This document shows, one piece after another, positions 1,701 to 29,602 of a stretch of 64,000 nucleotides of DNA. How positions within the stretch are numbered: position 1 is the first letter of the stretch; each line of letters opens with the position of its first letter. Origin of the DNA: Malus domestica (lineage: Eukaryota > Streptophyta > Magnoliopsida > Rosales > Rosaceae). The DNA lies in the NCBI RefSeq assembly GCF_042453785.1, contig NC_091673.1:317501-381500 (forward strand), given 5' to 3'. Position numbers and translations under genes: made by a program. The notes below the pieces were generated by a model that ran no database searches, was not told where the DNA came from, and was given only the letters and a program-made list of their open reading frames with translations.

Positions 1701-3029
1701 TGGAGTATAACACACGGGCCTAATTATAGAGAGATTTTTTAGTGTTCCCGTCACACGAAATGATACATCACGTATCCCTCTACAAATGGTGGGTTATGTG
1801 TGTTAAAAGGTTAATAACTTAAAAATTAAAATTTTCTATCACTTATATAAAAACACGTGATATATTATCCGTGTTTCCTTCATAACTAAATTTTTTTCCT
1901 AATTATGAGTCTGATTCTTGTAATGTTGCGAGGTGAGTTGAAAGTGGATGCAAACGAGTGACGCCGTAATTGATGATGTCTTCCAGATGACCAGACAATT
2001 GGAGTCAGTTGACTTCTTATACTTTGTCGTTAATATAATGAAGTAACTCACCCGATGGCTTCCGTTGCAACTAAATATGGGGCATGATGTTTCTTCATTT
2101 ATTTATTTTTTCAATGCTATAGCAAGAGATGTAAATATTTTCCTGAGAATTTAATAAAATATTCGTATCATTTAAATTAATCAAACTCACCAAATTAAGG
2201 ATTACGTGAATAATATTAATCTTTAATATTAGAAAGTCATAAATAAATTTTGGTGTCTCAAGGCTTCATAAAAAATAACTAGACACAATAGTCCCTGATA
2301 CAAAAAAAATTACAACCACCCATAAAAAAAACAGATTATAATACCAAGGGTATTTCCTTAAACACATATTTAATTTATTTTGTTTTAGATAATAACAGAA
2401 AACACTAAAAAATAAAAAAGTGGCGTCAAAACTGAAACCACACAAAAAAATGCCACAAAAAACTAAAATCTACAGCATGAGAGGGGAGGATGAAAACGCA
2501 CGACGCGATCATGCTTTTCCATAGCAAAAAAAATATATTGATCGTGCTGCTCTAGACCTAGAATTCACATACCAGTATTTAAAGAAGACAGGTATGCAGT
2601 ACATGCCCCGTTTTGAAGATGGTAATTAATTACTCCATCAATTTTCTTGGTATTTCTACATTCAATTTTTTTGCCACTTGACTAATTACTCCGATCAGAA
2701 TTATATTTAATTACTGTATGTATGGGTTTGTATATTTATTTAATTTTTATGTAATTTAATTTTGATTTTAGCATCAAAAGGAGGCTATGACAAAGGGACT
2801 GATAACTTGCAAGATGTGGAAATGGCTGTTGACGATGCTGATGGTAACTCTTCCTCTCAATCTCTCCGTTGAATTTGCTATTGCTATTGTATCTTTAATC
2901 GTGTACACCAAATTAAACAACGCATTGTTTCTAGTTGAATGACACACCCCGACCCAAGGGGTCCAGGCGTGCTGGCCATCATGCCTGGACCCCCTGGGTC
3001 GGGGTGTGTCAGTTTGGTATCAGAGCTTC

Positions 3030-3417
3030 CTGAAAAGCCACCCAGAATTTAGAAGTAAATTTTGGGTCTCGATCAGAAATAATATTCACCGGAACTCCAT
3101 GATACTTCACAATCTTCGTAATGAACAATTTAGCCAATTTATTCAAAGGATACTTCTCCCTTACTGGAATGAAATGCGCTGACTTGGTAAGTCGATCCAC
3201 AATCACCCAAATACCATCGAATCCATTTCGTGTACGAGGAAGTTTATACACGAAATCCATGGTTACATTTTCCCATTTCCACTGGGGAACGGGAAGTGGC
3301 TGCATTCGCCCAAATGGCTTCTTTCTTTCTGCTTTAACTTGATGGCAAATAATACATCTACTCACATAATCTGCAATTTCCCTTTTCATACCCGGCCAAT
3401 AATAAAATGGTCGAATG
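3030..3417 (-). pseudogene. Chromovirus integrase fragment
   Basis: On the minus strand this piece carries the second half of an integrase zinc finger (CIICHQVKAERKKPFG), then the start of the catalytic core with WENVTMDFV, WVIVDRLTKSAHFIPV and HGVPVNIISDRDPKF. That text is typical of Ty3/gypsy chromovirus integrases. It is a fossil fragment inside the element at 2940-5437, lying opposite to the direction implied by the LTR and PBS. A further short integrase zinc-finger piece lies on the plus strand near 3430-3540. Confidence 0.85.
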
Positions 3418-3539
3418 GTATGCTTATGCAGGAAAACAGAATGTATGTTCCGAATAATGAGGAATTAAAGAAGGAAATTTTGGATGAAGCGCATTGTTCA
3501 GCTTATGCGATGCACCCGAGAGGAACTAAAATGTATAAC

Positions 3540-12260: not shown

Positions 12261-12758
12261 TTACAATAATTTACAAGTAAAAATAGTTTTTCACACTTCA
12301 CAACCTTAACCCTGAAAATTATAGGGTCCAGCAACCGAATTATGTTTCTGTACAGACCCAAACACAAAAAAATTTATCTACCCACTCTCTGATTTGTCGT
12401 ATTTACCCCGACCTACATGTGGTGAAGAAAACAAAAGATTTTTTGAGTATGATCGACAATGATACATTACTTATCATTATACAAATGATGAGATATGTGT
12501 ATTAAAAAATTTATAATTTAAAAAATAAAATTTATCACTATTTACCTAAAAACACGGTACACCTGCGTTCCTTCGTAATAAAAAATTTCTCTAAAGAAAA
12601 CCCCCCAACTCCTTGACCCGACCAGAGAGGAACCCAACCAACCCAGATCCTAAAACACAAAAACACACACTCTCTCTCTCATACACTTCGAGGGTTCGAG
12701 TAACGTTTGAACCCATAAAACCTATCCCTCGTCTGCGAATCCCTCCCCTTCTCTCATT

Positions 12759-15700
12759 ATGAGAGGCTTAATCTCAAAGGCGAAGCTCCTGGCAAGTAGC
12801 AGGCCATGGCGCCCATCTCTGCGCAGCTACAGCTTGATCCCCATGGTCATTGAGCACTCCTCCCGAGGGGAACGCGCGTACGACATCTTCTCCCGCCTCC
12901 TTAAGGAGCGGATCATTTGCATCAACGGACCCATCGACGACGACACTTCCCACGTCGTCGTCGCGCAGCTTCTCTACTTGGAATCCGAGAACCCGTCGAA
13001 GCCCATCCACATGTACCTTAATTCCCCCGGTGGTCACGTCACTGCAGGTCCTTTTGTTATTTCCCATTTTTATTTCTGTTTAATTTTTTATAGGTTGTGT
13101 GAAATTCTCGTGCTTTAATTTACATATTGTTTTGGTTTGCGATTTGCCGATTGCAATTTTGAGATGTCAGAAATGAGATAGTCGATTTTGTTTTATAGAT
13201 TTTAACCCGATTTCGACTTCCATTTCACCACCTGGTTTACTTATTTGTGTTTTTGGTTGTTTGTTTGTTGTTATATTAACAGTAGAATGAGTTTATATTC
13301 GCAGTATCTGTTTCTCGAAAATGAATTTTGATAATCGATGAGGTTATTTATAAGCTCGAAATCTGTAGCGCAATGTTTATCTTTGTTGAATATATGTGGA
13401 CAGTGAATTTATTCTAACGGTTAGAATTCCTTTGTCCCACATTGGCCAGAAGGCTTGGGAACAAACCATTTATATAGAATTACCCGCTCTAACTAATACA
13501 GAGGCCTTTTGTATTAAAACCCCACGCCGGATTGAGCAGGTGGCCAAGTGGGGATAGTATCGGTGTTGTTGGAGTGGACCCATGGTCCGTCTACCTGAAA
13601 TTTAAGATGGTACCCGAGCTAGGGACGGGTCCGTACATCCACGTGAACGGATGGGTCCCCTTTGGCCCTGCGCAAATGGGTGAGCCCCGACTTGGCTCCA
13701 AGTAGGCCAAGAGATGCCACGCGGCTTGGCTCTACGTGGTTGCCCATGTGTGGAACCTCTACGTGTGACCCATAAAATGGGGTCTCACGTGCGGAGGAAT
13801 GTTAGAATTCCTTTGTCCCACATCGGCCAGAAGACTTGAGAACAAGCCATTTATATAGAATTACCCCACTCGAACTAATACCGAGACCTTTTGTATTAAA
13901 ACCCCACACCTGACGGATTGAGCAGGTGGCCAAGTGGGGACAGTATCGGTGTTGTTGGAGTGGGACCATGGCCCGTCTACCTGAAATTTAAGACTAACTT
14001 GTACCCGTGAAATCTGTAATCTTTTCTTTGTGGGTGTTTGGGCCCAAAATAATAGTTTGGGCCGAGGGTAGGATCACTCTCGGCCCAGGAGGCCGAGCGG
14101 CAAAAGGACCATGGATCAGTCAACCCGTGGGAGTCCAAACCTAGGGCGGTTAGGACGAATCCTAGTGCAATGGGGAGTCTCGACGGGATCGAATATCCAG
14201 GAAACTAATCCAGCTTAGCTAAGGACTAGGTTCATAGTCTTAGTAGGTGTAGGACTGGTTGAGGTGATCCGGAGAGGGAAACCTAGTCCGAGTAGGATGT
14301 AAACTCGGACTCAAGGTTCAGTACTATAAATAGGGGACGCTGTGCATCAGGAGAAGCCCCTACAAAATCAATACAAAATTGCCCTGCGCAGACTCTCACA
14401 ACTTGAGATTTTTTCTTTTTCCTTTTTTCGCTGACACATCTTCCGTTGGCATCAACAGCACTGTGGAAGCAACCGGTGATATCTTAAGTCGGCATAGATA
14501 GCTCTGTCACCGTAGAGTCAGTCAGTCTTGCAGTATCTTCCGTTGGCATCAACAGCACTGCGGCAAGAACGATTGATTACCTATCCAAGTCTCGGTCGAG
14601 AAGGGTTTCTGAATCCTTATTGGTCGGGGTCATCTCATTAGCCTTCTCGGCGAAGTGAGGTGTTACAGTTATTATATTCGGCACGTCGAAAGCCGAATTC
14701 GGTTCGTGAACTTCGTAAGAATAGCAGCCTTGTCTTCAGGCTCGAGAACCTAAGAGGCCGAGACGTGTTCCTTTCTCGGCCGCAATCGCAAGACGCAGAA
14801 GTCAGTAGCGCGACCCAACGCAACATCATCAAATTTACTCCTCGGCCGAGCTCGGCCGACGAGTTGGCACGCCCCGCAATCACCGAAGGACGTAGTCAGC
14901 TTAGAAAATACTCGGCCTGCGCGCCACGTAGGCTTTGTAGTTTCTAGGGTCAACATTTTGGCACGCCCGGTGGGACCTAGTGCTAAACTACGAAGTTCAT
15001 GCCAATTGAAACACGATCGGTAAAAAAGAAGACAGCTATGGGAAAGTCGATAGCCGATTTACCGAGTCAGAGCATAGGACAGAGTGTGCCACAGGCGCAG
15101 AATCCCCTTAGCGCTGGTACACATGAGTCCACGAGCACGACTCGCCGAGAGAGAGAAGTTAATCTCGGCGGTCAACTCCGTGGTTTAGAGATCCCTAACA
15201 GAAACACATGCGTTCTCAATGAAGGGATAATAGAGGAGTGTGACGAGGATGGTGGTGAAGGATCTGACCCACCAACGAGGTCGTTTCTCCGAAAGCGACT
15301 GGACGAGCAATCTCGGTCAGTCGAGCAGACGTTCAGTCGAGGTATCGATAAGCTGACGCGATACTCAGTGCCAATGATCGACAAACCAAGCTGCTCGAAA
15401 TGCTGGTTAGTAAAGTTGGTGGCAGCAGACCTTTCGACCTTCTCCAGCATTGTCCCCCAGGAAACAATCCGGTACCGATTGTACCGGTCGATCCTATTCC
15501 TGCTCTGCTCAAACCAATTAACTTGGAGAAAGGAGGGGGGTCGAATAGTAGGACGGACGGGACCGACCAGAGGGTCGAAGCAACACCTGTTGATATGACC
15601 GAAGTTCAGCGGATGATCGACTCGGCCATGAAGAAAGGGCCGAAGTTTCCCAAGTTCATTCATCCGTACCCAGCTTACGTGGAAACGTTTGGGTACCCGA

Positions 15701-18700
15701 AGGGTTTCAAGATCCCAGATTTTAGTCTTTTTGCCGGTGAGTCGTCCCTGTCTTCGTTGGAACACGTGGCTCGTTTCACCGCGCAATGCGGAGATGTTAA
15801 TAGTGACTTTCATAAGTTACGGCTGTTCAACTTCTCATTGACCGGTTCGGCATTCGCTTGGTACATTAATTTACCCCCCAATTCCGTCCAGAACTGGGAA
15901 GAGTTGGTCGAGAAATTCCATGAGCAGTTTTATCGGCCAGGAATGGAGATGTCAGTTTCTTCGTTAGCAAGGATGGCTCAGGCATATGATGAATCACCAA
16001 TGGATTATCTTACTAGGTTCAAGTCAGCCAGCAATTGGTGCCGAGTACCTTTACCCGAAGTAGAGTTCGTCAGGCTTGCTTTGAACGGATTAGACGTCGA
16101 ATATAAAAAGAAATTCCTGGGGGCAAACTTTCGGGACATGTACGAATTAGCCCAACATGTCGAACAGTATGACTATTTGCTCCGCGAGGAGAAGGTTTCG
16201 AAAACGCCATCTCGGGGGACGCTTTACAAGAATCCTACCGTCAACTATGCGTCCACCGAGGAGGAATGCGTTAGTGTGGATGCGGCCGAGATAGTGATAG
16301 ATAAGCCATACGTGTGCAAGGCGTTGACTCAGGTTGATTCTAGAGAAGTCAAAGGCCGCTCGGCCACTGAAGGAGCATTGAAACCGTCAAAGGTTTACAC
16401 TTTTGATATTACCAAGGCTGACGCAATTTTTGACCAACTGTTGTCCGTAAGAATTATCAAGCTTCGACCTGGTCACAATATTCCTAAGGCTGAAGAGCTT
16501 AAGGGAAAGGTGTATTGCAAATATCACAATTCGAGCAAACATACGACAAACAATTGTGTCGTATTTCGCGACAACGTCCAAAGCTGGATTGATAATGGTA
16601 AACTGAAATTTCCCGAGAAGAAGATGGGTATTGACACTGATCCGTTCCCTACGGCAACCGTGAATATGGTCGACGCGTGCCTACCTAAGGACAAAGGGAA
16701 AGGGAAGGCTGAAGTCGTTACGACGCAACGTTTTCAGACTCAGAATTCTCGGCCACGCTTCATGGCCGATTTCCGTTCAAACGCACCACCTACGGCTTTA
16801 ACGGGACCCGCTGTTGTCAAACCTATGATGGATTATACTACCGATGAAGACAGCGGGACGGCGGTTTTGTGCAGGAAATGTAGAACAAAGGTCGAGAGTG
16901 AGTCAGAGGAGAAGCCCCCTTCACTTGGGACGGAACGACCCGTGGCCGTAACCCGGCGTAATGTCGCCAATATAGGCCAACATCAAGGGGTTTTTGACAG
17001 GCTTGGTCCTAGAGTACGGATGGAAGAGATACCCCCGGTCCGGAGGCGCCTCGATTTTGATGATTCGTTCTATGACGATGATTACTACAAACGAAATTCT
17101 AGCAGCTCAGAATCATCGCGGAGCCAGAAAACCTTCAAACCTCCTGAACCTAAAGATCAACGGTGGTATACATATCATTCTTCGAGGGGAGTTTACACGA
17201 CACTGTCCAAATCCCAGAAACGTAGGCACCAAAGGATAGATTGCATGGCTCGCCGACGGGCAGCCCATGAAACTTCGGTCCCTAGATGGCGGCCGAAGGA
17301 CACAATTGCGCCCGATGATGAGCGACCAAGTCCCTCCATCATGACAGAGTTGGTTCAAGGGAAACGGTTGGTCGACCGAGCTGTTGAAACTACGTTCGAG
17401 GAGGCTGATAAACGGATCAAACTTCTTCTTCGGCCAGGGGAGATGAAGGCACGGCTCGAGTTTTTCAGGCAAGAGGCCGAAAGCAAATTCGTACCGTCAG
17501 CTATACAAGAACCTTTGATCAAAATTCGACGGAATTTGCATCCACCATTCCTTGGGGAGTCTTTGGAGTATACGCGAGAATTTCATAAGAAACATTCGGC
17601 CAACGATTTGTGTGGTTTGCCGAAAGCATGCCAGGACACCATTGATCTGGTTCTGGCTTGTCCGGATGCTGAGCGGATCATCCAGAAGACCTCAGATCCA
17701 GGATTGAAAGCAAGGTTCCAGCACATACGAGAAGCTCGTGTCCTTGGATTTGGAGTCGACCCGTATACCGATATCGATACAGCCGACCTTCCTTTCTCGC
17801 TCGAGGACCTTCAGTATTTGCGATATCACTTTGAAGAATTTTCAGCGGTCTCTCTCTTCGGCCTTACGGCTGATGAAATCACACGTATTGCCCGTCTAGA
17901 TGCTTATCTCGACACGAGGGATGCTCGGCTATATTACCAGGAGCAGGTTCAGGTCCTGACCCCAAACACATTGTCAATCTCTGAAGTGGTAACACAGAAC
18001 CAACACGTCGCCGAAGCAGCTCCGCCGAGTGACGTCATTGAAGAAGGAACAGAAGAGTATCGGTGTCTGACTCTGACGACAACTGAGTCCGTAGTCGCCG
18101 ACCAACCGAACGAGGAGGGTCTTGACCAGATGGGCCCATCAGTCCTGGATAATATGGAAATCGGTATGGTTCATGTGTTACCTGCTGATTTCCAGTCAAG
18201 CACGGCTCAACCAAATTTCCTTGATGGCGATGTGGTTGCTGAGGAACCTGGCCATGTTGATTTTGTGTCTATTGCTGAAGGCGAGTCAACGACAAAAGAT
18301 GATAATCTAAAGGCCGCTTTGGCCGAATTGTTCCTTCGTTCATCATCGGCCAAGCTCCACCATTTAAAGCCATTGTATGTGACGGCCCATATCGAGGGAT
18401 ATCCAGTTTCTAAAGTTTTTGTCGATTGTGGAGCTACCGTCAACATCATGCCTCTGAACATCATGAAGGCCTTACGCCGTTCGAATGACGAGCTCATTCC
18501 GTCAGGAATCACAATGAGTAGTTTTGTCGGCGACAAATCCCAAACAAAAGGGGTACTTCCGTTAACTGTCAATATTGCTGGTCGCACCCACATGACCGCC
18601 TTTTTCGTAGTTGATTCCAAAACCGAGTATAATGCACTGCTCGGCCGAGATTGGATCCATCAAACTAGCTGTATTCCTTCTTCGTTGTGTCAAGTGCTTG

Positions 18701-21700
18701 TCTTTTGGGACGGCAAATCGGTCACTATTCATCCGGCCGATAGCCAACCCTTTCAAAGCTAACATGATCCAAGCCCGGTATTATGATGACCACGTCGGCT
18801 ACATTACATTGCAAGGCTTCAATGAAGACGGACGGCCGACTCGGATTTCGGTTCAGAAAGCTATCGAGGTTGGCGCCGAGACTGTCCATCAGGATTCGGC
18901 GAGACTCGGATTGGCTAATTTTCTCCCCGAATCTGATGTCTGACACAGACCAGGACAAACGTAGGGCCGCGGTTTCATCTACGATGGAACGACTGCTGGC
19001 CCATTGGTATACTATATCTCGGCAACCGAATTCAGGTGTTAACCTCGTCGAATTCCTTGCTGAAGAGGATCCTGGTCCTGCCCTATCTTTTGATCAAGTT
19101 CGAGCCGCCCCGGCCGAGCTCGAGGATTATCGGCCCCAAGTTAAGGACCCCCTAGAAGAAATTAATGTTGGGACGGCCGGTGACCCACGGCCTGTGTTTG
19201 TTAGCGCTTTACTCCCTCAACAAATGAAGGACGAGTTGCGGGCCTTACTTACGGAATTCAAAGATTGTTTTGCTTGGAGTTATCATGAAATGCCCGGTTT
19301 AGATCGTGCTCTGGTCGAGCATGAATTACCTATTAAGCCCGGATTCAAGCCTTTCCGTCAGCCACCTCGTCGATTCTCGACCGAAGTACAACTTAGTATC
19401 AAGGACGAACTAGTTCGGCTTTTGAAAGCCGGATTCATTCGGACAGCTCGATATGTCGAATGGTTGGCGAATATTGTTCCTGTATTAAAAAAAAATGGTG
19501 CACTGCGCATCTGTACCGATTTTCGAAATCTAAATCTGGCAACGCCCAAAGATGAGTATACAATGCCAATTTCAGATTTGTTAATCGATGCCGCGGCGAA
19601 TCATGTGATCTTGTCCTTTATGGATGGACATGCCGGGTACAACCAAATATTTATTGCCGAAGCCGACGTGCACAAAACTGCTTTCCGTTGCCCGGGGGCA
19701 CTCGGCACTTACGAATGGGTTGTCATGCCATTCGGCCTCAAGAATGCCGGCGCCACGTACCAACGGGCGATGAACACCATCTTCCATGATTTAATTGGCA
19801 CCATCGTCGAAGTTTATATCGACGATGTTGTCGTCAAATCTAAACGCCGACAGACACATCTGGACGATCTCCGACAGGCTTTCCTCCGCATGCGTCAGCA
19901 CAACCTCAAGATGAATCCTGCCAAGTGTGCCTTCGGTGTATCGGCCGGGAATTTTCTTGGTTTTCTCGTACATCATCGTGGGATTGAAGTCGATGAGAAT
20001 AAGGCTCGCGCAATCATCACTGCTCCACCCCCAACAACGAAGAAACAATTACAATCCTTACTCGGCCAGATCAATTTTTTACGCCGATTTATTGCTAATT
20101 CGGCAGGTAAGATGAAAGCGTTTTCCACTCTTTTGAAACTCAAGGACTCAGATAGGTTCGTGTGGAATGAGGAGCATCAGGCGGCGTTTACACAGATAAA
20201 GGTTTCTCTCACAAATCCACCTGTCCTGGTCCCTCCTCAGCGCGGTAAGCCTCTCAAGCTATACATTTTGGCGGCCGAGGAGTCCATCGGTTGCCTCCTC
20301 GCGCAAGACAACGATGCCGGACGGGAACATGCTATCTTCTACCTCAGCCGTAATCTGAGCCATCCGGAGATCAATTATTCCGCCGTTGAGAAGCTCTGTC
20401 TCGCCGTATTTTTCGCTGCATCCAAGCTTCGGCATTACATGCTCCCGGCGGTCACCCAAGTCATTGCCCAGACCGACGTTATCCGGTACATGCTTACCCG
20501 GCCAATTGTGAAGGGCCGAATTGGGAAATGGACAATGGCGTTGTCCGAGTTCAGTTTGCAATACGTGCCGCAAAAGGCTGTGAAGGGACAGGCATTGGCC
20601 GATTTCCTTGCCCAGCACCCTTCGCCTTACGGTTTTGGGAGTGCTGACGTCGAAATCGGCATGGTGGTGACCCGCGACAACTATTGGACGATGTATTTCG
20701 ATGGTTCTAGTACTTCGTCCTCGGCCGGCGCAGGCATCGTCATTCAATCTCCCCACAACGATCGTTGGTATTTTTCGCTCAAATTGGATTTCGACTGCAC
20801 CAATAATCAGGTCGAATACGAGGCGCTGGTCATTGGTCTGGGCCTCCTTCTTGACTTACATGCCACTCGTGTCTTCGTCCTTGGGGATTCTGAACTAGTG
20901 ATTAACCAAATTAATGGGTCTTTTCGCTGCATGAGTTGTACTCTGGCGCCTTACCATATGGTCGCCAGCTATTTGGCCGAGTCTTTTGACGGTATTACAT
21001 TCGAGCATATTTCTCGGGTTCATAATACCGACGCAGACGAGTTGGCTCAAATCGCCTCCGGTGCACAACTCATGGGGGGCAAGCTAGGCCGGGAGATACC
21101 AATATTACGACAATTATACCCGGCCTTGTTTGATCAGCAAATCTTCCGTCGAGACAATGTGATACGCACCAGGGTCATGTCCCTGCCTTCGTTGTTAAAT
21201 CGGCAGGACTCTATAGAAATTTGCGCGGCCGAGGCAGTACCAGAGGATTGGAGAAAGCCCATTATGCAGTACCTTGACAATCCTAACGGAAAACATAGTC
21301 GCAGGACACGGGTTCACGCCACGAACTATGTCACGTACCAGAACGAGTTGTACCGAAAGGGCGAAGATGGTTTGTTATTGCTATGCCTCGGCCCCCAAGA
21401 GAGTGCTCGAGCGATCTCAGAGGTTCATGAAGGGGTATGTGGAGCTCACCAGTCTGGACGGAAAATGCGATGGCTACTCCGACGACACGGTTATTTTTGG
21501 CCGAGAATACTGAAAGATTGTATCGAGTTTGCACGGGGATGCGTGCAGTGCCAAATCCATGGGCCTATACAAAGGGTCTCGGCCGAATCACTACATTCGG
21601 TCATTAAGCCGTGGCCGTTTAGAGGATGGGCCATGGACGTAATCGGCAAAATCACGCCGACTTCCGGAGCTGCTAAGCATGCATGGATAATAGTCGCAAC

Positions 21701-24700
21701 TGATTACTTTACTAAGTGGGTCGAAGCAAAATCATATGCCGAGTTAACATCTAAAGAAGTTTGCGACTTTGTGGAGGAGCACATTGTGACCCGATTCGGT
21801 GTGCCAGAAACGATCATAACCGACAATGGAACAATTTTCACAGCCGAAAGGTTTAAAGAATACACGGCCAGTTTGAAAATTCGGCTGGAACAGTCCACAC
21901 CGTATTATCCACAGGCGAATGGGCAGGCCGAGGCAAGTAATAAAGTGTTGATTGGCATCCTCGAAAAAATAATAAAAGAAAGGCCTGGCATGTGGCATTT
22001 GAAGTTGAACGAGGCATTATGGGCATACCGAACGTCGCCCCGATCGGCGACTGCAACAACCCCATACGCATTGACCTATGGACACGATGCGGTGCTACCA
22101 GTCGAGTTGAGCATAAATTCGTTGCGATTAATTGAACAAAGTAGTTTGTTTAGCGCCGAATATAATCAGTCCATGAGACAGGAACTAGAAGATTTGGAAG
22201 AGGCGCGACTTGACGCTTATAACTTATTGGTGGCACAAAAACAGATTGCCGAGCGAGCCTATAATCAAAAGGTACGACAGAAAACGTTCGGCGAGGGCGA
22301 ATTAGTGTGGCAAACGGTGTTGCCCGTAGGAATAAAAGATCCCAGGTTCGGCAAGTGGTCGCCAAATTGGGAAGGGCCGTTCATTGTGCATAAGGTATAC
22401 GGGAAAGGGGCGTATCATCTTAAAGACCGGACTGGAGTAGTTCACAAATTACCGATTAATGGAAAGTTCTTGAAGAAATACTATCCGGTCACATGGGAAA
22501 TGCGTGAATAAAAAAGTTGTACCAGTAGGAAAAAATCATTCCATTAAGATTGATAGGTATTACAAAATGAGTAGGTCGAATACATTCAAGGAGACGAGGG
22601 AAGAAGAGTGCTGAGCAGTCAACTCCAACCACCGCACGTCGGCCATGATGACTTCGGCCTGCCGATTCTTTTTGTCCAGCTTCAGCCGCTCGACCTGTTT
22701 TTTGGCCGCCGCATACTCAGTTAGGCGATTCTTCCCACCTGACTCGAAGTCCCTCGCAAGCTCAGAAGCAATGGCCGACCGGCGTTTTGCTAGTTCGGCC
22801 ATCTGACGGTCGAGCTCGGCTAACGCTTCTCCTTTTGCCCGTAGATCGTCAATCTTCGGACGGAGGGTGTCTTGAACGGCCGTGGCGGCTTGCAGGTCTT
22901 GTTCGGCCTTCAGAGCAGTCTGGAAGATACTAAATGTCTCCCGAACGCGCTCCAAGGCAGATGATGCCCGAACAATGGCATCTCCGCTCAGGCGACCGTC
23001 GGCTCCAAGGTCGTTCAAACACACGCCGAGCAGATCAAGACCGTTGCGCTCAAGTACTTGCGATGATGAGAGCGATAGGACTTCTCGCAACTGGGTTAGG
23101 GCGTTTGGATCGGCAGCCTCAGTCGGAGCGGCCGAAGGGCCGGACTCTGCAGTCGTGCTGGAGAGGAGGGCTTTGAATTCAACCTCCCATGAAGCCTGCA
23201 CGAATAGACAAGGTTAAGCTTAAAGGAAGTCATGACAAGAATAGTAAGAAGGCGTCGTTTTTTTTTTATTTTAACCTGCCGAGAGGAGACCTCGGCCATG
23301 TCCCCAGGATCGTTGCTCGAACCTAAAGAACTCAATGGCCGAGCCCAGTGTCTCAGATTGCTTCTCACTTCACGTGGCCGATGGAGGTTATCTACGTTTG
23401 ATGGCCACTGAGGCGGCCAGGAAATATAGACAACGCCCTTCGGCGCATAGAATTGACGGTGAAAAGAATGTACAGGCACCTGACATTTAGTATTTTCCTT
23501 GTTTAGAATTCTAAAGCAGAAAAGAAATCAGGAGGAGACAATTGAAGGTACTTACAAAAGCCGAGGTAACCTCCTGTGGAGGAATGTGGAAGCCTTGGTC
23601 TTGAGGATGGACCGGCGATTCCGCCGTGGCCTCGGGTTCCTCGAGCAGCCGTTTGCCACGGTCGGCTGCCGATGGGCCGACTGGCGCAGCTGCTTCAGAG
23701 GAGGCCGGGACGTCCTGGTCCTGAGAAGGAACGAGAGATTCAGCCACCGGGGTCGGTTCCTCGACCGTGCGCTTGCCACGATTGGCTGAGGAGGGGCCGG
23801 TTTGAACCGCCATCTCGGATACTGGAGGAGGTTGTCGACGAGTATGAGGACGATGCGCCAACGGGACCTCGTCGCTCCCCTCACTCTCTTCCAACACGAG
23901 GATCGAGGGCTTTGGATTCTTGGGAGATGTTCCCTCGGTCGTAGAAACCGCCTGTTGTGAGACAGGTGCCTTCTCGATAGAGGGAGGTACAATCGATGCG
24001 CCGGCCATAGAGGCAGGCCGCGCTAGGGCCGTCTCTGCGGCCGAAACCGGCTGTTTCTCGACCCCAGAATGACCGGCGGCGGGAGAAGGGGAAGCACTGG
24101 GAGTCGTCGTGCGACTGGAGATAACGTGGATCTCCCGTGCACCTTTCTTCGCCATTTGTTTAACCCGCTTAGCAGGCGGGGAAGGCTCGACAGCCGGCTC
24201 AGCTTCTTGGCGAGGCCGTTTGATCAGCATGGCCCTACCAGCGGGTTTGTCCTTTTGGGCCGCGACCGATTTTTTCCCGGCCGTGGCAGCGGCAACTGCT
24301 TCCGTCTTTCTCAAGGGCCGACTACCTAAAAAGATAAAGACAATTCAGTAAGGCAAATCAATATGCAAGGTTGATGGAAAGGAGGAAAATGGAACAGGTA
24401 CCTTGAGGATGAGGGGCCGAGGCCTTCTTAGGCCGGTCACCGAAGAGTCTGCTAAGCACATCTTCGACCGGCGCACCAAAGAATTCCTGGGTGTATTTCT
24501 CCCACCACTCACCAAAGGTGTCGGTGCAATGGGTTTCCGGGGTGGCTGGTCGAAGGCGGAATTTTTGGCAGCGCTCTTGGAACTCCCTCACGGCGGTTCT
24601 ACACTCCTTCTCAGAGGAACGAGGTTCGCGTCCACGGCTTAGGACCGTTCGGGAGGAAAGAAGGGGGATAGGGCAGCCCTGAAGGTAGCCAAGCTGACGG

Positions 24701-27700
24701 GCAAGGAAGTTCGGATGATATACTTCCCAACCTGACCGTTTCCCATCACAGCCGAGAGGGAGGTCGCGAGCAAGCACAAACGACCCCCAGGTCTGACGAA
24801 GATCGGCGTCGTCCTCCGCGCTCCATGGGGAGGTAGGCAGCCTGATGGAGGAAGGATAGTCTCGACGACGACATATTAGGAACTCGTCGTTGGAGAAGTC
24901 GTCGAGAGCAAAGAGGTACCGAAATACCTCTTCGGCTTGATGGGGAGGTGTCGGTCGAGAGGCCAGTTGAGGCCCAAGCGCCTCTGTTGGTGAGAATTCA
25001 GCTATGGCCGGCCGAAGGGAGGCGAAGTATACCTGCAACCAGAGTTGGAAGACCCAGAGAGGACCATTCTGGTGCGGGTCGACCTTGTGGAGGGTCGCCT
25101 CGGCAAGGCAGCGGAAAAGTTGGGCGAGAATGTTGGAACTCAGCGCCAAAACGTGACCACTAGCCAGGGCTTCGGCTACCGGCATGTTCTCTACCAAACA
25201 CTTGTTTGACTTGGTACAACAAATGTATTTGTTGTACCAGTAGAAGAGGAAGGCTTCATGCTCTCCCTCTCGCAGGTCCTCTTCTCCTCGGCCGGCGAAG
25301 TGGAGATAGAGGGTGTTGTAATTACAGAAGTTCTTGTGGAGCTTCTGAATATCTTCCTTCGACGGGATATGACCGTCACGGTTCAAGGTCTCGGAGGCCC
25401 GACGGTCGAAGAGCGTTTTCAAGTCGATATTCGACGGATGCCCAGAGAGGGTCGCGTCGACAGGGATCCCGGTCGCCGAAGTTCCCAGAATGGCAGTGAG
25501 ATCCAGGATGGTAGGACCAATGGGACCCAGAGGAAGGACCATTGTGTTGGTGGCCGAGCACCAGAAGCACAGGGCGGCTTGGAGAAGCTCCTTGTCAGGG
25601 ACGATTTCCATAGACGAAAGGAGGATGGCGTCGTAGATGCCAAGGGCCTTCCATTGCTCGCCGAAGAGTCGTTCCATTCGAACGACCCAGGCTGCCCAGG
25701 ATGTGGTCGTCGAGGGCCAGGAGCCCTGGGGTTTAGCCGCATCCCATCGCGACCATTCAAACCCTTGAAGCAAGGGTGTTAGGCAGTGCTCCTGTAGAAG
25801 GTCGATGATAGTCGGCGGTATTGAAGCCTTGAAGAGAGGACCCAGGATTTGGTACTGGGTGCTCATGTCGTTTTCAAACCGGATGGTCTTGATCGAGCTC
25901 CGATCAAAAATCTTCTGATGTTGGTCACATTCCCTGGAAAGCTTGGAGATGAAGGATGCCATTGTGAGAAAGAAGCACGGAGTAGAAGGGTTGTCTGGGT
26001 TGGGGATTTAAAGACGAAGACTTGGAATAAGAGAAATGCACTAGAAATCAACGGCAGAGGATTCCAGGAAGTTTGAGAGCGTAAAAGTACAAATGAGGGA
26101 ATTTCGGTATTTATAGAGTTATGGGGGGAAGAGCAATCGTTCGAAATTCAAAACAAAGGGCAAAGTCAACCGAAGGAATTGTTGATCATGATGAACATTT
26201 GGGAAATGCGGTTGAGAAGACCGAAGGTTAGGGTTTTGGGGGCGTATGATTGCGTGTGACGGCGAAATTAATGACGAAAGACGGTTCGACGCCCGCACGA
26301 TGACAAGTGGGTTCACGGACTGAGGTAGTGGCTCGCGGATTGAGATAGTGGTCATGATGGCAAGACGGTTCAGGCTGTCGCACGCCTTAGACGTCATTAT
26401 GGAGGAATGGCCATGTTGGAGGACGCCACGTGGCGAGTGGGTTAGCAGGTTCAAGATCGTGCGATCATGCTCAATAAATGCGCCTTGGAACTCGGGTATT
26501 AGGATCCTGAGGGGTAGATTCGCTTCTTCAAGGCCGAAACTCGGCCAAAGGTTTCAGGCCGGAGACCTCAGAAGCGAGGGGGCAATGTTTGGGCCCAAAA
26601 TAATAGTTTGGGCCGAGGGTAGGATCACTCTCGGCCCAGGAGGCCGAGCGGCAAAAGGACCATGGATCAGTCAACCCGTGGGAGTCCAAACCTAGGGCGG
26701 TTAGGACGAATCCTAGTGCAATGGGGAGTCTCGACGGGATCGAATATCCAGGAAACTAATCCAGCTTAGCTAAGGACTAGGTTCATAGTCCTAGTAGGTG
26801 TAGGACTGGTTGAGGTGATCCGGAGAGGGAAACCTAGTCCGAGTAGGATGTAAACTCGGACTCAAGGTTCAGTACTATAAATAGGGGACGCTGTGCATCA
26901 GGAGAAGCCCCTACAAAATCAATACAAAATTGCCCTGCGCAGACTCTCACAACTTGAGATTTTTTCTTTTTCCTTTTTTCGCTGACACATCTTCCGTTGG
27001 CATCAACAGCACTGTGGAAGCAACCAGTGATATCTTAAGTCGGCATAGATAGCTCTGTCACCGTAGAGTCAGTCAGTCTTGCAGTATCTTCCGTTGGCAT
27101 CAACAGCACTGCGGCAAGAACGATTGATTACCTATCCAAGTCTCGGTCGAGAAGGGTTTCTGAATCCTTATTGGTCGGGGTCATCTCATTAGCCTTCTCG
27201 GCGAAGTGAGGTGTTACAGTTATTATATTCGGCACGTCGAAAGCCGAATTCGGTTCGTGAACTTCGTAAGAATAGCAGCCTTGTCTTCAGGCTCGAGAAC
27301 CTAAGAGGCCGAGACGTGTTCCTTTCTCGGCCGCAATCGCAAGACGCAGAAGTCAGTAGCGCGACCCAACGCAACATCATCAAATTTACTCCTCGGCCGA
27401 GCTCGGCCGACGAGTTGGCACGCCCCGCAATCACCGAAGGACGTAGTTAGCTTAGAAAATACTCGGCCTGCGCGCCACGTAGGCTTTGTAGTTTCTAGGG
27501 TCAACAGTGGGTAATGTTCAAGTTGGACAAAATTAGGGATTTGTCATCCATTTCTTCATTGAAAATGCCTTCAATATGGTGAATAGTCCCACCCAACCCG
27601 ATTCTCTCATCAAATGAGGCCTTAAGAAAACTAATGGATATGTGGATTTGTTGGTTCAGAGGATTTTGTGGATAGTTTGGTTTGTGTAACCTGCGTCATA

Positions 27701-29602
27701 AGCGCATTATCAGTGAGAAGTATGGGATTTTCTTATGACTTAAAAATCTACTAAATCTTAAGTTGTCGAGTGGAATTTGATTCTACAAACCCGTCACGAA
27801 GTAGAACTGTTAGAGAAGTCATTGACATGCGTAACCATGAAATCATGATATTGGTAGCATTTTGGAACCGGAATTAATAGTGGTGATGGATCTCCATTCA
27901 AGTAAAACAGAACTTTTAATTACCATTGTATGATCATGTATACAATATACCACCAATGCTGAGGCACTTACTTAGTAGTTGTACTCTTTGACATGGGTCC
28001 TTTTCACCATAATATTGCTTACAGTTTGAACTCTATCTTGGTTTATGTTAACTATAGTTGAATCCTAAATGTTGTTAATTGTTAAGTATCGGTTTAAACA
28101 AACGGAAAACAACTGCTAGCCATAAGTTATGCAGTAAGTTTTGGAGTATGGAAATTAGTGGTCCACGGACTTGAATAGATTGTAGAGCATTAATAAGCTA
28201 ATCCAAGGAAGTAAGAAAAATAGAGGCAGAGGGTGATCATGCTTTATAGATGATTTCCTGGTGGTGTGTGGGAATATCAGTACTGGATGTTTAAGGAAAA
28301 TACTGTCTGTGTTTTGGAAGGTAGCTGTAGAGTTGTGTGGCAGCCAAACATCTTGTGTCTGCATAAATTACAATAATATTATGAAGAAAAACTAGGTATC
28401 ACAACCATGAATAGAGTTGTGCCACGCACTTTTTGACTTTGTTGAACCATCTCAATACTTCACTTGCTTGAAAGTGCGCAATTTTCTGCTTCATTAGACT
28501 GTTGGCAAAACTGAAGACTAAGTGCATAACTACAACAGAACTCTTTTTCCATTTATGAGTCTACTCTGTCTATATACTCCTGGCTTTGGAGCTGAGACTT
28601 ACGCACAGCATATTGGTAATACTGATCTGGTAGATAGAAATGGAAGTGGAAAGCCAACGTGGCTATGGCCAAACTTGATTATGATGTTCCAAATCGTACT
28701 GCATGAAATTACGATTAACATTTAATTTGTTGTGATCACTTGCTTTCATCAAACCTCATTCTTTATGTTTTCTAATTGGGGTCAAGAAGTCAACTAAGTG
28801 TAAGCCTTGTACCAGCTAGTTGGGGTAAAACAACATAAATCTTTATTGAACATTTGGTCTTACTGTAAACAGTTTCTATTAGATATGTCAATTCAAAAAG
28901 TTGATACTACAACCCTTACTACAATGTTATTTTATTTGGGAGAAACGTTAGTACAATGCTTGTGTTTCCCCCCTTATGGTATGTTTTAATTCCTTAATTT
29001 GCTGATACTTCTGATGTGATTTTTAAACAGTATAGCTATGTTTTGTACTATAAATAAAGAAACGAGACTTGGCAGAAAACAATATCAATGAATAGAGGAA
29101 TAGACGAGACTCAATGCATGATTTGGTTAAAATTCACCAGCATTGTTACATGGTGATGATTGTATTAGTGCATACAGGTCTTGCAATTTATGATACGATG
29201 CAGTACATTCGGTCACCAATCAGTACCATTTGTTTGGGCCAAGCGGCATCAATGGCTTCTCTTCTCTTAGCTGCGGGCGCCAAGGGTGAGAGGCGGTCTC
29301 TCCCAAATGCTACAGTTATGATTCATCAGCCTTCAGGCGGGTACAGCGGACAGGCCAAAGATATGACAATTCACACGAAGCAGATTGTTCGTGTCTGGGA
29401 TTCCCTTAATGCGTTGTACTCAAAGCATACGGGGCAACCAGTAGATATAATTGAGAAGAATATGGACAGGGATCATTTTATGACCCCAGAAGAGGCAAAG
29501 GCATTCGGAATCATTGATGAGGTGATTGATGAAAGACCGATGGCTCTGGTGACTGATGCTGTTGCCAATGATGGCAAAGAAAAGGATAAAAGTTCAAAGT
29601 AG
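12759..29602 (+). CDS. CLPP2: Mitochondrial ATP-dependent Clp protease proteolytic subunit CLPP2
   Basis: Exon 1 is 12759-13047 and exon 2 is 29178-29602, joined within a Gly codon (GCAG|GTCC .. ATACAG|GTCT), giving 237 residues against about 241 in Arabidopsis. ClpP forms the heptameric-ring peptidase chamber that works with a ClpX unfoldase in the mitochondrial matrix. The serine-protease triad is intact: Ser121 in [10 protein letters not shown], His146 in VMIHQPSGG and Asp195 in MDRDHF, with the same spacing as bacterial ClpP. The first ~25 residues ([20 protein letters not shown]) are Arg/Ser-rich and lack acids, as in a mitochondrial presequence. The C-terminus is charged and short. The single intron is 16,130 bp because it contains a TRIM and a 13.5-kb Tat retrotransposon. 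Both exons look undamaged, so the gene is probably functional if the intron is spliced efficiently. Confidence 0.95.
13419..13993 (+). mobile_element. TRIM element (copy 1)
   Basis: A terminal-repeat retrotransposon in miniature. Two LTRs of about 190 bp (13419-13607 and 13800-13993, starting (T/G)GTTAGAATTCCTTTGTC) enclose only ~190 bp. Directly after the left LTR, TGGTACCCGAGC (13608-13619) resembles the initiator tRNA-Met primer site. Just before the right LTR, GTGCGGAGGAA is the polypurine tract. The element is flanked by the perfect 5-bp duplication CTAAC (13414-13418, 13994-13998). It codes for nothing. The LTRs differ at a fair number of positions, so this insertion is much older than its Tat neighbour. 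A relative lies at 58759-59307. Confidence 0.9.
14035..14955 (+). repeat. 5' LTR of the Tat element
   Basis: Begins TGTTTGGGCCC and ends GGGTCAACA. The TATA box is TATAAATAG at 14325-14333. Downstream is a pair of near-identical short direct repeats containing CTTCCGTTGGCATCAACAGC (about 14439 and 14537). The sequence is rich in the palindrome TCGGCCGA and its core TCGGCC, as is the whole element. Confidence 0.95.
14956..14976 (+). promoter_or_regulatory. Primer-binding site of the Tat element
   Basis: TTGGCACGCCCGGTGGGAC lies directly after the LTR's terminal CA, where minus-strand priming occurs. Its form resembles the TTGGC.. primer sites of Tat/Athila elements rather than the tRNA-Met site of chromoviruses. 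I do not assign the tRNA. Confidence 0.65.
14999..18762 (+). CDS. Tat element gag-protease region
   Basis: The region starts with an ATG at 14999 shortly after the primer site; the main open stretch covers 15400-18762 (about 1,120 codons). A retrotransposon gag domain is recognisable ([12 protein letters not shown].., [17 protein letters not shown]-like text, [15 protein letters not shown], 15690-16200). A retropepsin-type aspartic protease follows near the end ([21 protein letters not shown] and [12 protein letters not shown], 18410-18660). Between them is a long charged, probably disordered section. Gag forms the virus-like particle and the protease matures the products. Tat/Ogre relatives are known to separate gag-pro and pol by splicing or recoding, and pol here lies in another frame a few bases on. 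Confidence 0.85.
18783..22511 (+). CDS. Tat element RT-RNaseH-aRNaseH-integrase
   Basis: One open stretch of 1,242 codons. Reverse transcriptase has [18 protein letters not shown] and the catalytic YIDDVVV near residue 345. A first RNase H follows (about 480-610). A second RNase H has [19 protein letters not shown] and [11 protein letters not shown] (about 634-770); this duplicated, archaeal-type domain is diagnostic of the Tat lineage. Integrase has the zinc finger H..H..C..C ([20 protein letters not shown], about 880-925) and the catalytic core with [23 protein letters not shown] and [10 protein letters not shown] (about 949-1060). The stop is only 48 bp from the stop of the antisense gene on the other strand. 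Confidence 0.92.
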   Translation: MMTTSATLHCKASMKTDGRLGFRFRKLSRLAPRLSIRIRRDSDWLIFSPNLMSDTDQDKRRAAVSSTMERLLAHWYTISRQPNSGVNLVEFLAEEDPGPALSFDQVRAAPAELEDYRPQVKDPLEEINVGTAGDPRPVFVSALLPQQMKDELRALLTEFKDCFAWSYHEMPGLDRALVEHELPIKPGFKPFRQPPRRFSTEVQLSIKDELVRLLKAGFIRTARYVEWLANIVPVLKKNGALRICTDFRNLNLATPKDEYTMPISDLLIDAAANHVILSFMDGHAGYNQIFIAEADVHKTAFRCPGALGTYEWVVMPFGLKNAGATYQRAMNTIFHDLIGTIVEVYIDDVVVKSKRRQTHLDDLRQAFLRMRQHNLKMNPAKCAFGVSAGNFLGFLVHHRGIEVDENKARAIITAPPPTTKKQLQSLLGQINFLRRFIANSAGKMKAFSTLLKLKDSDRFVWNEEHQAAFTQIKVSLTNPPVLVPPQRGKPLKLYILAAEESIGCLLAQDNDAGREHAIFYLSRNLSHPEINYSAVEKLCLAVFFAASKLRHYMLPAVTQVIAQTDVIRYMLTRPIVKGRIGKWTMALSEFSLQYVPQKAVKGQALADFLAQHPSPYGFGSADVEIGMVVTRDNYWTMYFDGSSTSSSAGAGIVIQSPHNDRWYFSLKLDFDCTNNQVEYEALVIGLGLLLDLHATRVFVLGDSELVINQINGSFRCMSCTLAPYHMVASYLAESFDGITFEHISRVHNTDADELAQIASGAQLMGGKLGREIPILRQLYPALFDQQIFRRDNVIRTRVMSLPSLLNRQDSIEICAAEAVPEDWRKPIMQYLDNPNGKHSRRTRVHATNYVTYQNELYRKGEDGLLLLCLGPQESARAISEVHEGVCGAHQSGRKMRWLLRRHGYFWPRILKDCIEFARGCVQCQIHGPIQRVSAESLHSVIKPWPFRGWAMDVIGKITPTSGAAKHAWIIVATDYFTKWVEAKSYAELTSKEVCDFVEEHIVTRFGVPETIITDNGTIFTAERFKEYTASLKIRLEQSTPYYPQANGQAEASNKVLIGILEKIIKERPGMWHLKLNEALWAYRTSPRSATATTPYALTYGHDAVLPVELSINSLRLIEQSSLFSAEYNQSMRQELEDLEEARLDAYNLLVAQKQIAERAYNQKVRQKTFGEGELVWQTVLPVGIKDPRFGKWSPNWEGPFIVHKVYGKGAYHLKDRTGVVHKLPINGKFLKKYYPVTWEMRE
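22560..25962 (-). CDS. Antisense plant mobile domain (PMD) gene carried by the Tat element
   Basis: Four exons on the minus strand: 25962-24402, 24325-23556, 23479-23276 and 23195-22560. Introns of 76, 76 and 80 bp have GT..AG ends and compatible phases, giving about 1,056 residues. Exon 1 matches the plant mobile domain (aminotransferase-like PMD, PF10536, also found in MAIN/MAIL1): an opening Met-Ala leader, [33 protein letters not shown], then a Trp-rich domain to about residue 440. Exon 2 is a basic/Ser-Pro linker with KRPRQEAEP and [13 protein letters not shown], plausible nuclear signals. Exon 4 is a long coiled coil ([13 protein letters not shown] .. [20 protein letters not shown] .. 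[12 protein letters not shown]). PMD proteins act in nuclear gene and TE silencing; what this copy does is unknown. Because the introns are antisense to the element's RNA they would survive retrotransposition. Antisense ORFs are known in Tat relatives such as Grande. Confidence 0.8.
26108..26115 (-). promoter_or_regulatory. TATA box of the antisense PMD gene
   Basis: On the minus strand TATAAATA lies 146 bp upstream of the PMD ATG at 25962, in a good position for a start site near 26080 and a leader of about 110 nt. It is outside the LTR, so the captured gene would have its own promoter. Inferred from sequence only. Confidence 0.55.
26570..26585 (+). promoter_or_regulatory. Polypurine tract of the Tat element
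   Basis: AGAAGCGAGGGGGCAA immediately precedes the 3' LTR, as needed to prime plus-strand synthesis. Confidence 0.75.
26586..27506 (+). repeat. 3' LTR of the Tat element
   Basis: 921 bp, same length as the 5' LTR and differing at about 3 positions by eye. TATA box TATAAATAG at 26876-26884. Followed by the target duplication GTGGG. Confidence 0.95.
27512..29177 (+). other. Remainder of the CLPP2 intron
   Basis: AT-rich DNA without recognised repeats or coding. Short ORFs (e.g. 28522-28725, 28807-28989) have no family resemblance. It ends with the acceptor CATACAG at 29171-29177. Confidence 0.6.

Follow-up and report, generated by a model that had tools for sequence, protein, structure and literature searches.

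An antisense, intron-bearing plant mobile domain gene in an apple Ty3/gypsy retrotransposon as a likely old accessory gene

Introduction

Plant mobile domain (PMD) genes borne by Gypsy retrotransposons and antisense genes of Tat elements are already in print, and here we describe a gene that resembles both. It lies in apple (Malus domestica; contig NC_091673.1 of assembly GCF_042453785.1, positions 317,501 to 381,500), in a stretch of 64,000 nucleotides that we refer to as the window, and runs antisense to a Ty3/gypsy element at 14035-27506, between pol and the 3' long terminal repeat (LTR). As the best explanation, and a reasonably probable one on the sequence comparisons below, we propose that a Tat-clade Ty3/gypsy family has long carried it as an accessory gene, kept by purifying selection.

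The Gypsy-encoded PMD-A1 and PMD-A2 likewise place a PMD in Ty3/gypsy elements, and are reported to be widespread in angiosperms and distinct from the host MAIN/MAIL proteins (Ikeda et al. 2017, PMC5418596). The available text of that paper makes no mention of 'intron' or 'antisense', and the present gene is likened to PMD-A by description. In plant Gypsy consensuses from ten species, PMD was reported as the most frequent extra domain, as in the element here; antisense spliced PMD genes are not described in the accessible part of that work (PMC9289625). As to position, Grande (gene23), RIRE2 and Retand of Silene likewise carry antisense genes between pol and the 3' LTR, the Grande gene is reported to have its own promoter, comparable to the TATA-like box found outside the LTR here, and the pol-to-LTR region in apple, at 4.1 kb, is within the 2.9-6.6 kb reported for Tat/Retand (PMC7264820; PMC11963269). 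A survey from 2025 found TRP28 (PF04195) in 57 of 104 antisense open reading frames, and its main text, as far as available, does not mention 'PMD', 'mobile domain' or 'intron' (PMC11963269). In contrast, TRP28 was not among the matches here, either at E <= 1 in the window's three antisense frames or at E <= 10 in five relatives, with HMMER filters that discard most weak matches. In the accessible portions of the literature on the plant mobile domain in retrotransposons, we found no intron-bearing antisense PMD gene described. Work by Steinbauerova et al. in 2011 reportedly treats extra genes in plant Ty3/gypsy elements and may hold some of the present findings. HBZ of human T-cell leukaemia virus type 1 (HTLV-1) is spliced, and its protein is unrelated to PMD. 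As an antisense accessory gene for a nuclear protein (PMC11963269) it serves as an analogy only; the HTLV antisense promoter is reported to lie in the 3' LTR (PMC7264820), unlike the TATA-like box here.

MAIN and MAIL1 are host PMD proteins with a role in silencing (PMC5418596, PMC7156037), and such proteins silence transposable elements, yet elements carry the domain themselves, and Ikeda et al. (PMC5418596) leave open the direction of PMD transfer and the first owner. In apple, many copies, two apparent Tat lineages (one with introns, one with a single frame) and measured selection make the function directly testable. The gene also bears on the call of Vicient and Casacuberta (2020, PMC7264820) to seek antisense and spliced transcripts.

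The antisense gene and its copies

The gene occupies 25962-22560, between the pol stop (22511) and the 3' LTR (26586), and its coding sequence of 3171 nt (1056 amino acids) is divided over four exons (Table 1). Exon 1 matches PF10536 over its full length (positions 1-347 of 347, E 3.1e-38), at 132.3 bits against a cut-off of 34.9 bits. An earlier note, made from the letters of the window alone, had proposed such a four-exon PMD gene between pol and the 3' LTR of a young Tat element, with short introns at consensus splice sites; the profile match, the GT..AG ends at all three introns, the nearly identical LTRs and the dual RNase H of pol bear it out. GC content is 54-62% for exons and 33-36% for introns. 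Chance open frames can be rejected, since 1000 first-order Markov sequences gave no open run above 339 codons and the longest one in the stretch has 534; on the sense strand over the gene the longest open run is 190 codons. No Rfam match at E <= 0.1 was obtained within 22400-27600.

At least 118 PF10536 matches were found in the 651-Mb, 19-contig apple genome, many of them, by our reading of the match list, with scores resembling the window copy's own. Twenty PMD places were fetched, the first 20 of 40 chosen by window-like top scores and a non-random sample. The sister copies predicted by the earlier note were recovered, with all four exons matched in 18 of the 20; in the other two (L045 and L050) exon 1 alone matched, at 22% identity. 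As described for PMD-A, where PMDs lie inside Gypsy elements in several copies, an integrase was found on the strand opposite to the PMD in all fetched copies except L050 (19/20). The GT..AG ends of all three introns, the TATA box and the ATG are kept in the window and in all 17 close copies, and the diverged copy L041 has lost one donor and kept its TATA box and ATG. An LTR match, covering at most about the first 260 bp, stands beside the gene in 18 of the 20 copies, at 96-97% identity in three and 67-75% in fifteen, from which we infer that several LTR families may share the antisense gene.

A search with the 1056-residue protein retrieved 30 proteins, all named from Rosaceae, and a profile search retrieved 92, whose named members are all Rosaceae and whose remainder come from the sources 'ena' and 'lgn'; both searches rest on shared 5-residue words, with the top-sharing candidates scored, and miss distant relatives. 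The seven best Malus proteins are 86-92% identical over 98-99% of the query, and identity over the aligned parts is 43-57% for Pyrus, 32-38% for Rosa and 28-36% for Prunus. Among viral contigs, no relative of the antisense protein was found. The same residues are joined at the exon 1/2 junction in 18 of the 19 relatives shown, Pyrus accounting for five; the exception is P0013, and P0008 is without that part.

The four-exon reading thus stands, and its exact limits are less secure at the C-terminus of the window copy (see below) and at the start of exon 3. Among the 15 deposited Malus models spanning the latter point, nine use a later acceptor (about 23407), one uses the first-read acceptor and five have no exon 3, which is also absent from all three Pyrus models that continue to exon 4; both comparisons are with deposited gene models, not transcripts. 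Exon 4 is modelled as one helix over residues 71-202 of 211 (about 132 residues), with predicted local distance difference test (pLDDT) values mostly 80-95, a weaker end and a predicted template modelling score (pTM) of 0.37, and the predicted helix is compatible with the coiled-coil end that had been suggested. The linker encoded by exon 2 carries a basic cluster, common to Pyrus relatives, which we take to be a possible nuclear localisation signal motif.

Separately, one apple region (G000:C3:27566370-27616344) contains six PMD matches in 50 kb, where PMD genes of a host-like kind may stand in tandem.

Selection on the encoded protein

Ratios of nonsynonymous to synonymous substitution rates (dN/dS) were calculated, with codon-bootstrap intervals, for the 153 pairs among 18 rows, leaving out L041 and passing over stop codons. 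The values were 0.139 (0.104-0.178) for exon 1, 0.118 (0.083-0.155) for the PMD, 0.415 (0.289-0.601) for exon 2 and 0.244 (0.167-0.350) for exon 4, with a point estimate of 0.558 for exon 3. Removal of L033, L043 and L040 as well (15 rows) changed the ratios to 0.199 for exon 1, 0.157 for the PMD, 0.362 for exon 2 and 0.202 for exon 4, and the bootstrap intervals of both row sets all lie below 0.61. The purifying selection that the earlier note had made a check of its proposal is therefore observed. Intron divergence is 0.083; synonymous divergence (dS) lies at 0.034 for exon 3 and at 0.10-0.16 for the other three exons. For pol, dN/dS was 0.075 in the integrase (15 copies and the window) and 0.071 in the reverse transcriptase (RT)-RNase H part (14 copies and the window). 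Selection on the PMD is strong, though pol has roughly half its ratio; on the linker, constraint is looser again.

Wrong-frame controls gave dN/dS of 0.67-2.79, apart from one sense frame per stretch. In six close Malus proteins compared to the window, amino-acid changes are milder than neutral one-step changes: out of 2000 simulations each, 0 were as mild for the PMD, 4 for exon 4, 22 for the linker, 30 for the N-terminal part and 476 for exon 3. Taken together, the coding signal and the conserved gene anatomy show, as far as comparison of copies reaches, a protein maintained by purifying selection.

The copies L033 and L043 differ from the window at 162 of 381 silent sites in exon 1, much more than in exons 2 and 4 of these copies, a pattern suggestive of recombination between element families.

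Origin of the gene

We built a PMD tree of 27 rows from apple PMD places and Rosaceae proteins, which includes 14 apple places of other types out of the at least 118 matches. The window family and Pyrus (73% identical) form a group with support of 100/100, joined next by Rosa (40-41% identical to the window PMD; 80/76, weak), then Prunus (about 34%; 93/91) and then the apple place L011 (29%; 100/99), the best-scoring of the 14 other-type places. The window family stands apart from the higher-scoring apple places L001-L003, which are 25-27% identical. A close host source gene was thus not found among the 14 other-type apple places. Ikeda et al. (2017, PMC5418596) report Gypsy-only PMD-A clades, and propose that the ancestor of angiosperms already had such a PMD and that Gypsy elements have long been associated with PMD.

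A second lineage is made up of L027/L045 and L050; its grouping with L001-L003 is modestly supported (89/82), and a separate origin is therefore possible for it. L045 has the same antisense layout as the window, with a 941-codon PMD gene in a single open frame, and its pol has a dual RNase H and is, by part, 41-52% identical to the window pol. L050, a stretch that may or may not be a single element, carries gag in sense orientation together with an antisense PMD gene of 960 codons, and no RT, RNase H or integrase match was found in its 7985 bp. The L045/L050 pair has a dN/dS of 0.226. By these matches, the association of PMD with Tat extends to at least one lineage other than the window's, that of L045, and the two differ in introns.

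Alternative explanations

Several observations weigh against a maintained accessory gene. In-frame stops occur within codons 1-1040 in 7 of the 19 aligned rows, and L031 and L040 lose the frame in exon 4. In the window copy itself, a short indel relative to its relatives puts the last dozen or so codons out of frame, such that the C-terminal frame differs from all 14 protein relatives reaching that end (20 aligned) and from all 13 genomic copies reaching it (18 aligned; the other five stop earlier). Many single copies are accordingly decaying, and the earlier suggestion that the gene is kept intact holds for many copies and not for all. The stops and the altered end would also suit a gene carried along passively and decaying, with no role today; we consider this quite improbable in view of the dN/dS of 0.12-0.42 in the tested stretches, the conservation of splice sites, start codon and TATA box, and the gene's retention in L050, where no RT or integrase was detected. 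The selection estimates have their own weaknesses: the pooled pairs are mutually dependent, and in every one of the four stretches tested, one wrong frame out of five also has a low ratio (0.23-0.43). Such a low ratio is expected, because the third positions of the sense frame coincide, from the coordinates, with those of the antisense frame, and this frame is not an independent negative control. The PMD structure model is weak (pLDDT 58.1) and retrieved no Foldseek match at E <= 0.001, and no related sequence was found in the PDB (single match, E 0.15), leaving activity unreadable from structure. In the second lineage, a search upstream of the two PMD genes (L045 and L050) gave neither TATAAA nor TATATA.

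The earlier note held that the element had captured a host regulator gene. High-scoring PMD places in apple (L001-L003), with open frames of 629-684 codons, could be host genes; the identities and the tree nevertheless place the window PMD with Pyrus, Rosa and Prunus proteins and apart from these and from L011, and transduced genes are reported to be usually in sense orientation (PMC7264820). Recent capture of an apple PMD gene is therefore unsupported among the 14 places compared, and in our estimate very improbable indeed. We also think it improbable that the antisense transcript rather than the protein is what functions, by pairing with the sense genomic RNA and feeding small-RNA control. 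PMD genes of tea are reported to give 175 phased small interfering RNA loci (PMC10673657), and exon 3 is both conserved at the nucleotide level and strongly folded (see below), whereas amino-acid-level selection across exons 1, 2 and 4 implies that a translated product is needed, and covariation in exon 3 is not above its controls. A structural or nuclear-import factor for the integration complex, encoded by the element and unlinked to host silencing, is possible if doubtful: it would suit the linker's basic cluster common to Pyrus, the long predicted C-terminal helix and the nuclear and accessory roles discussed for antisense proteins of plant LTR elements by Vicient and Casacuberta (PMC7264820), and it sits less well with the action of the domain's host members MAIN and MAIL1 in silencing.

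Possible role of the protein

If the gene is an old accessory gene of the element, as we favour, it would be transcribed on the minus strand from its own promoter and then spliced. The introns would be present in the sense genomic RNA as their reverse complement, and would persist because, the genomic RNA being the opposite strand, they are not removed before reverse transcription. The earlier note had made the same suggestion, and the retention of the introns in all 17 close copies fits it. The encoded accessory protein is probably nuclear. With less assurance, it may act in the nucleus through its PMD, by competing with or recruiting the host MAIN/MAIL1-PP7L machinery and so raising expression of the element or of relatives in trans; alternatively, it may regulate the element's own transcription. 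A counter-silencing role has been proposed for PMDs borne by transposable elements in general (PMC8616336) and for those of Mutator-like elements (PMC5418596). A fuller account would have a spliced, possibly alternatively spliced, antisense PMD protein interfere with the MAIN/MAIL1-PP7L silencing complex, matter enough that a stretch with no detected RT or integrase keeps the gene, treat exon 3 as a Malus addition whose nucleotide sequence is constrained, perhaps as structured RNA, and let the introns persist by way of opposite-strand genomic RNA; as a whole we regard this combination as rather unlikely.

Exon 3

Silent divergence is lower in exon 3 than in any other exon. The exon folds far better than its shuffles (z -5.2), and its difference from L041 is 15.7%, where the remaining exons reach 23-40%. 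A search limited to proteins about 0.55-1.75 times the query length gave 14 candidates, of which 10 contain the exon; these ten all belong to the antisense gene family in Malus, and eight have PF10536. A conserved RNA fold was tried for this exon and rejected: in 15 of the 19 rows (13 distinct), one pair changed on both sides, and 133 of 500 shuffles scored as high.

The host element and its setting

The two 921-bp LTRs differ at 3 positions. At a substitution rate of 1.3e-8 per site and year, this difference would mean an age of roughly 0.1 million years. In pol, RT_RNaseH (residues 493-595) is followed by RVT_3 (644-761) and Integrase_H2C2 (880-931). A second RNase H is reported as a hallmark of the Tat family (PMC9289625), and by this dual RNase H criterion the element is assigned to the Tat clade of Ty3/gypsy.

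Table 1. Coordinates of the element and of the antisense gene in the window.
Feature	Position	Strand	Basis or remark
Target site duplication GTGGG, 5' copy	14030..14034	.	flanking sequence
5' LTR, 921 bp, TG...CA	14035..14955	+	LTR comparison
gag and protease open frame (stop to stop)	15352..18762	+	Retrotrans_gag 5e-11; protease match below family cut-off
pol open frame: RT, RNase H, RVT_3, integrase	18768..22511	+	Pfam matches
Exon 4, long predicted helix	22560..23195	-	final codons out of frame versus relatives
Intron 3, 80 nt, GT..AG	23196..23275	-	splice sites kept in copies
Exon 3, as first read	23276..23479	-	strongly folded, low synonymous divergence; start uncertain
Intron 2, 76 nt, GT..AG	23480..23555	-	splice sites kept in copies
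Exon 2, variable linker	23556..24325	-	splice reading, alignment
Basic cluster KRVK..AKK in linker	24132..24170	-	also in Pyrus relatives
Intron 1, 76 nt, GT..AG	24326..24401	-	splice sites kept in copies
Exon 1	24402..25962	-	splice reading
Plant mobile domain PF10536, residues 108-488	24499..25641	-	profile match
TATA-like box CTATAAATA	26108..26116	-	154 nt upstream of ATG, outside LTR
Purine-rich tract adjoining 3' LTR	26571..26585	+	by eye
3' LTR	26586..27506	+	918/921 identical to 5' LTR
Target site duplication GTGGG, 3' copy	27507..27511	.	flanking sequence

The element is lodged in an intron of a Clp protease gene (12711-29602), in the same orientation as that gene, and the PF00574 match is split into two plus-strand parts around it: 12711-13115 codes for positions 2-65, and 29096-29599 for positions 60-181. 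At 18611-18943 (+), a frame in another phase reads past the end of the gag-protease frame at 18762 and overlaps the start of pol; no Pfam match was found in this overlapping frame. Outside the element, an open frame at 3009-3464 (-) resembles, by eye, part of a retroelement integrase.

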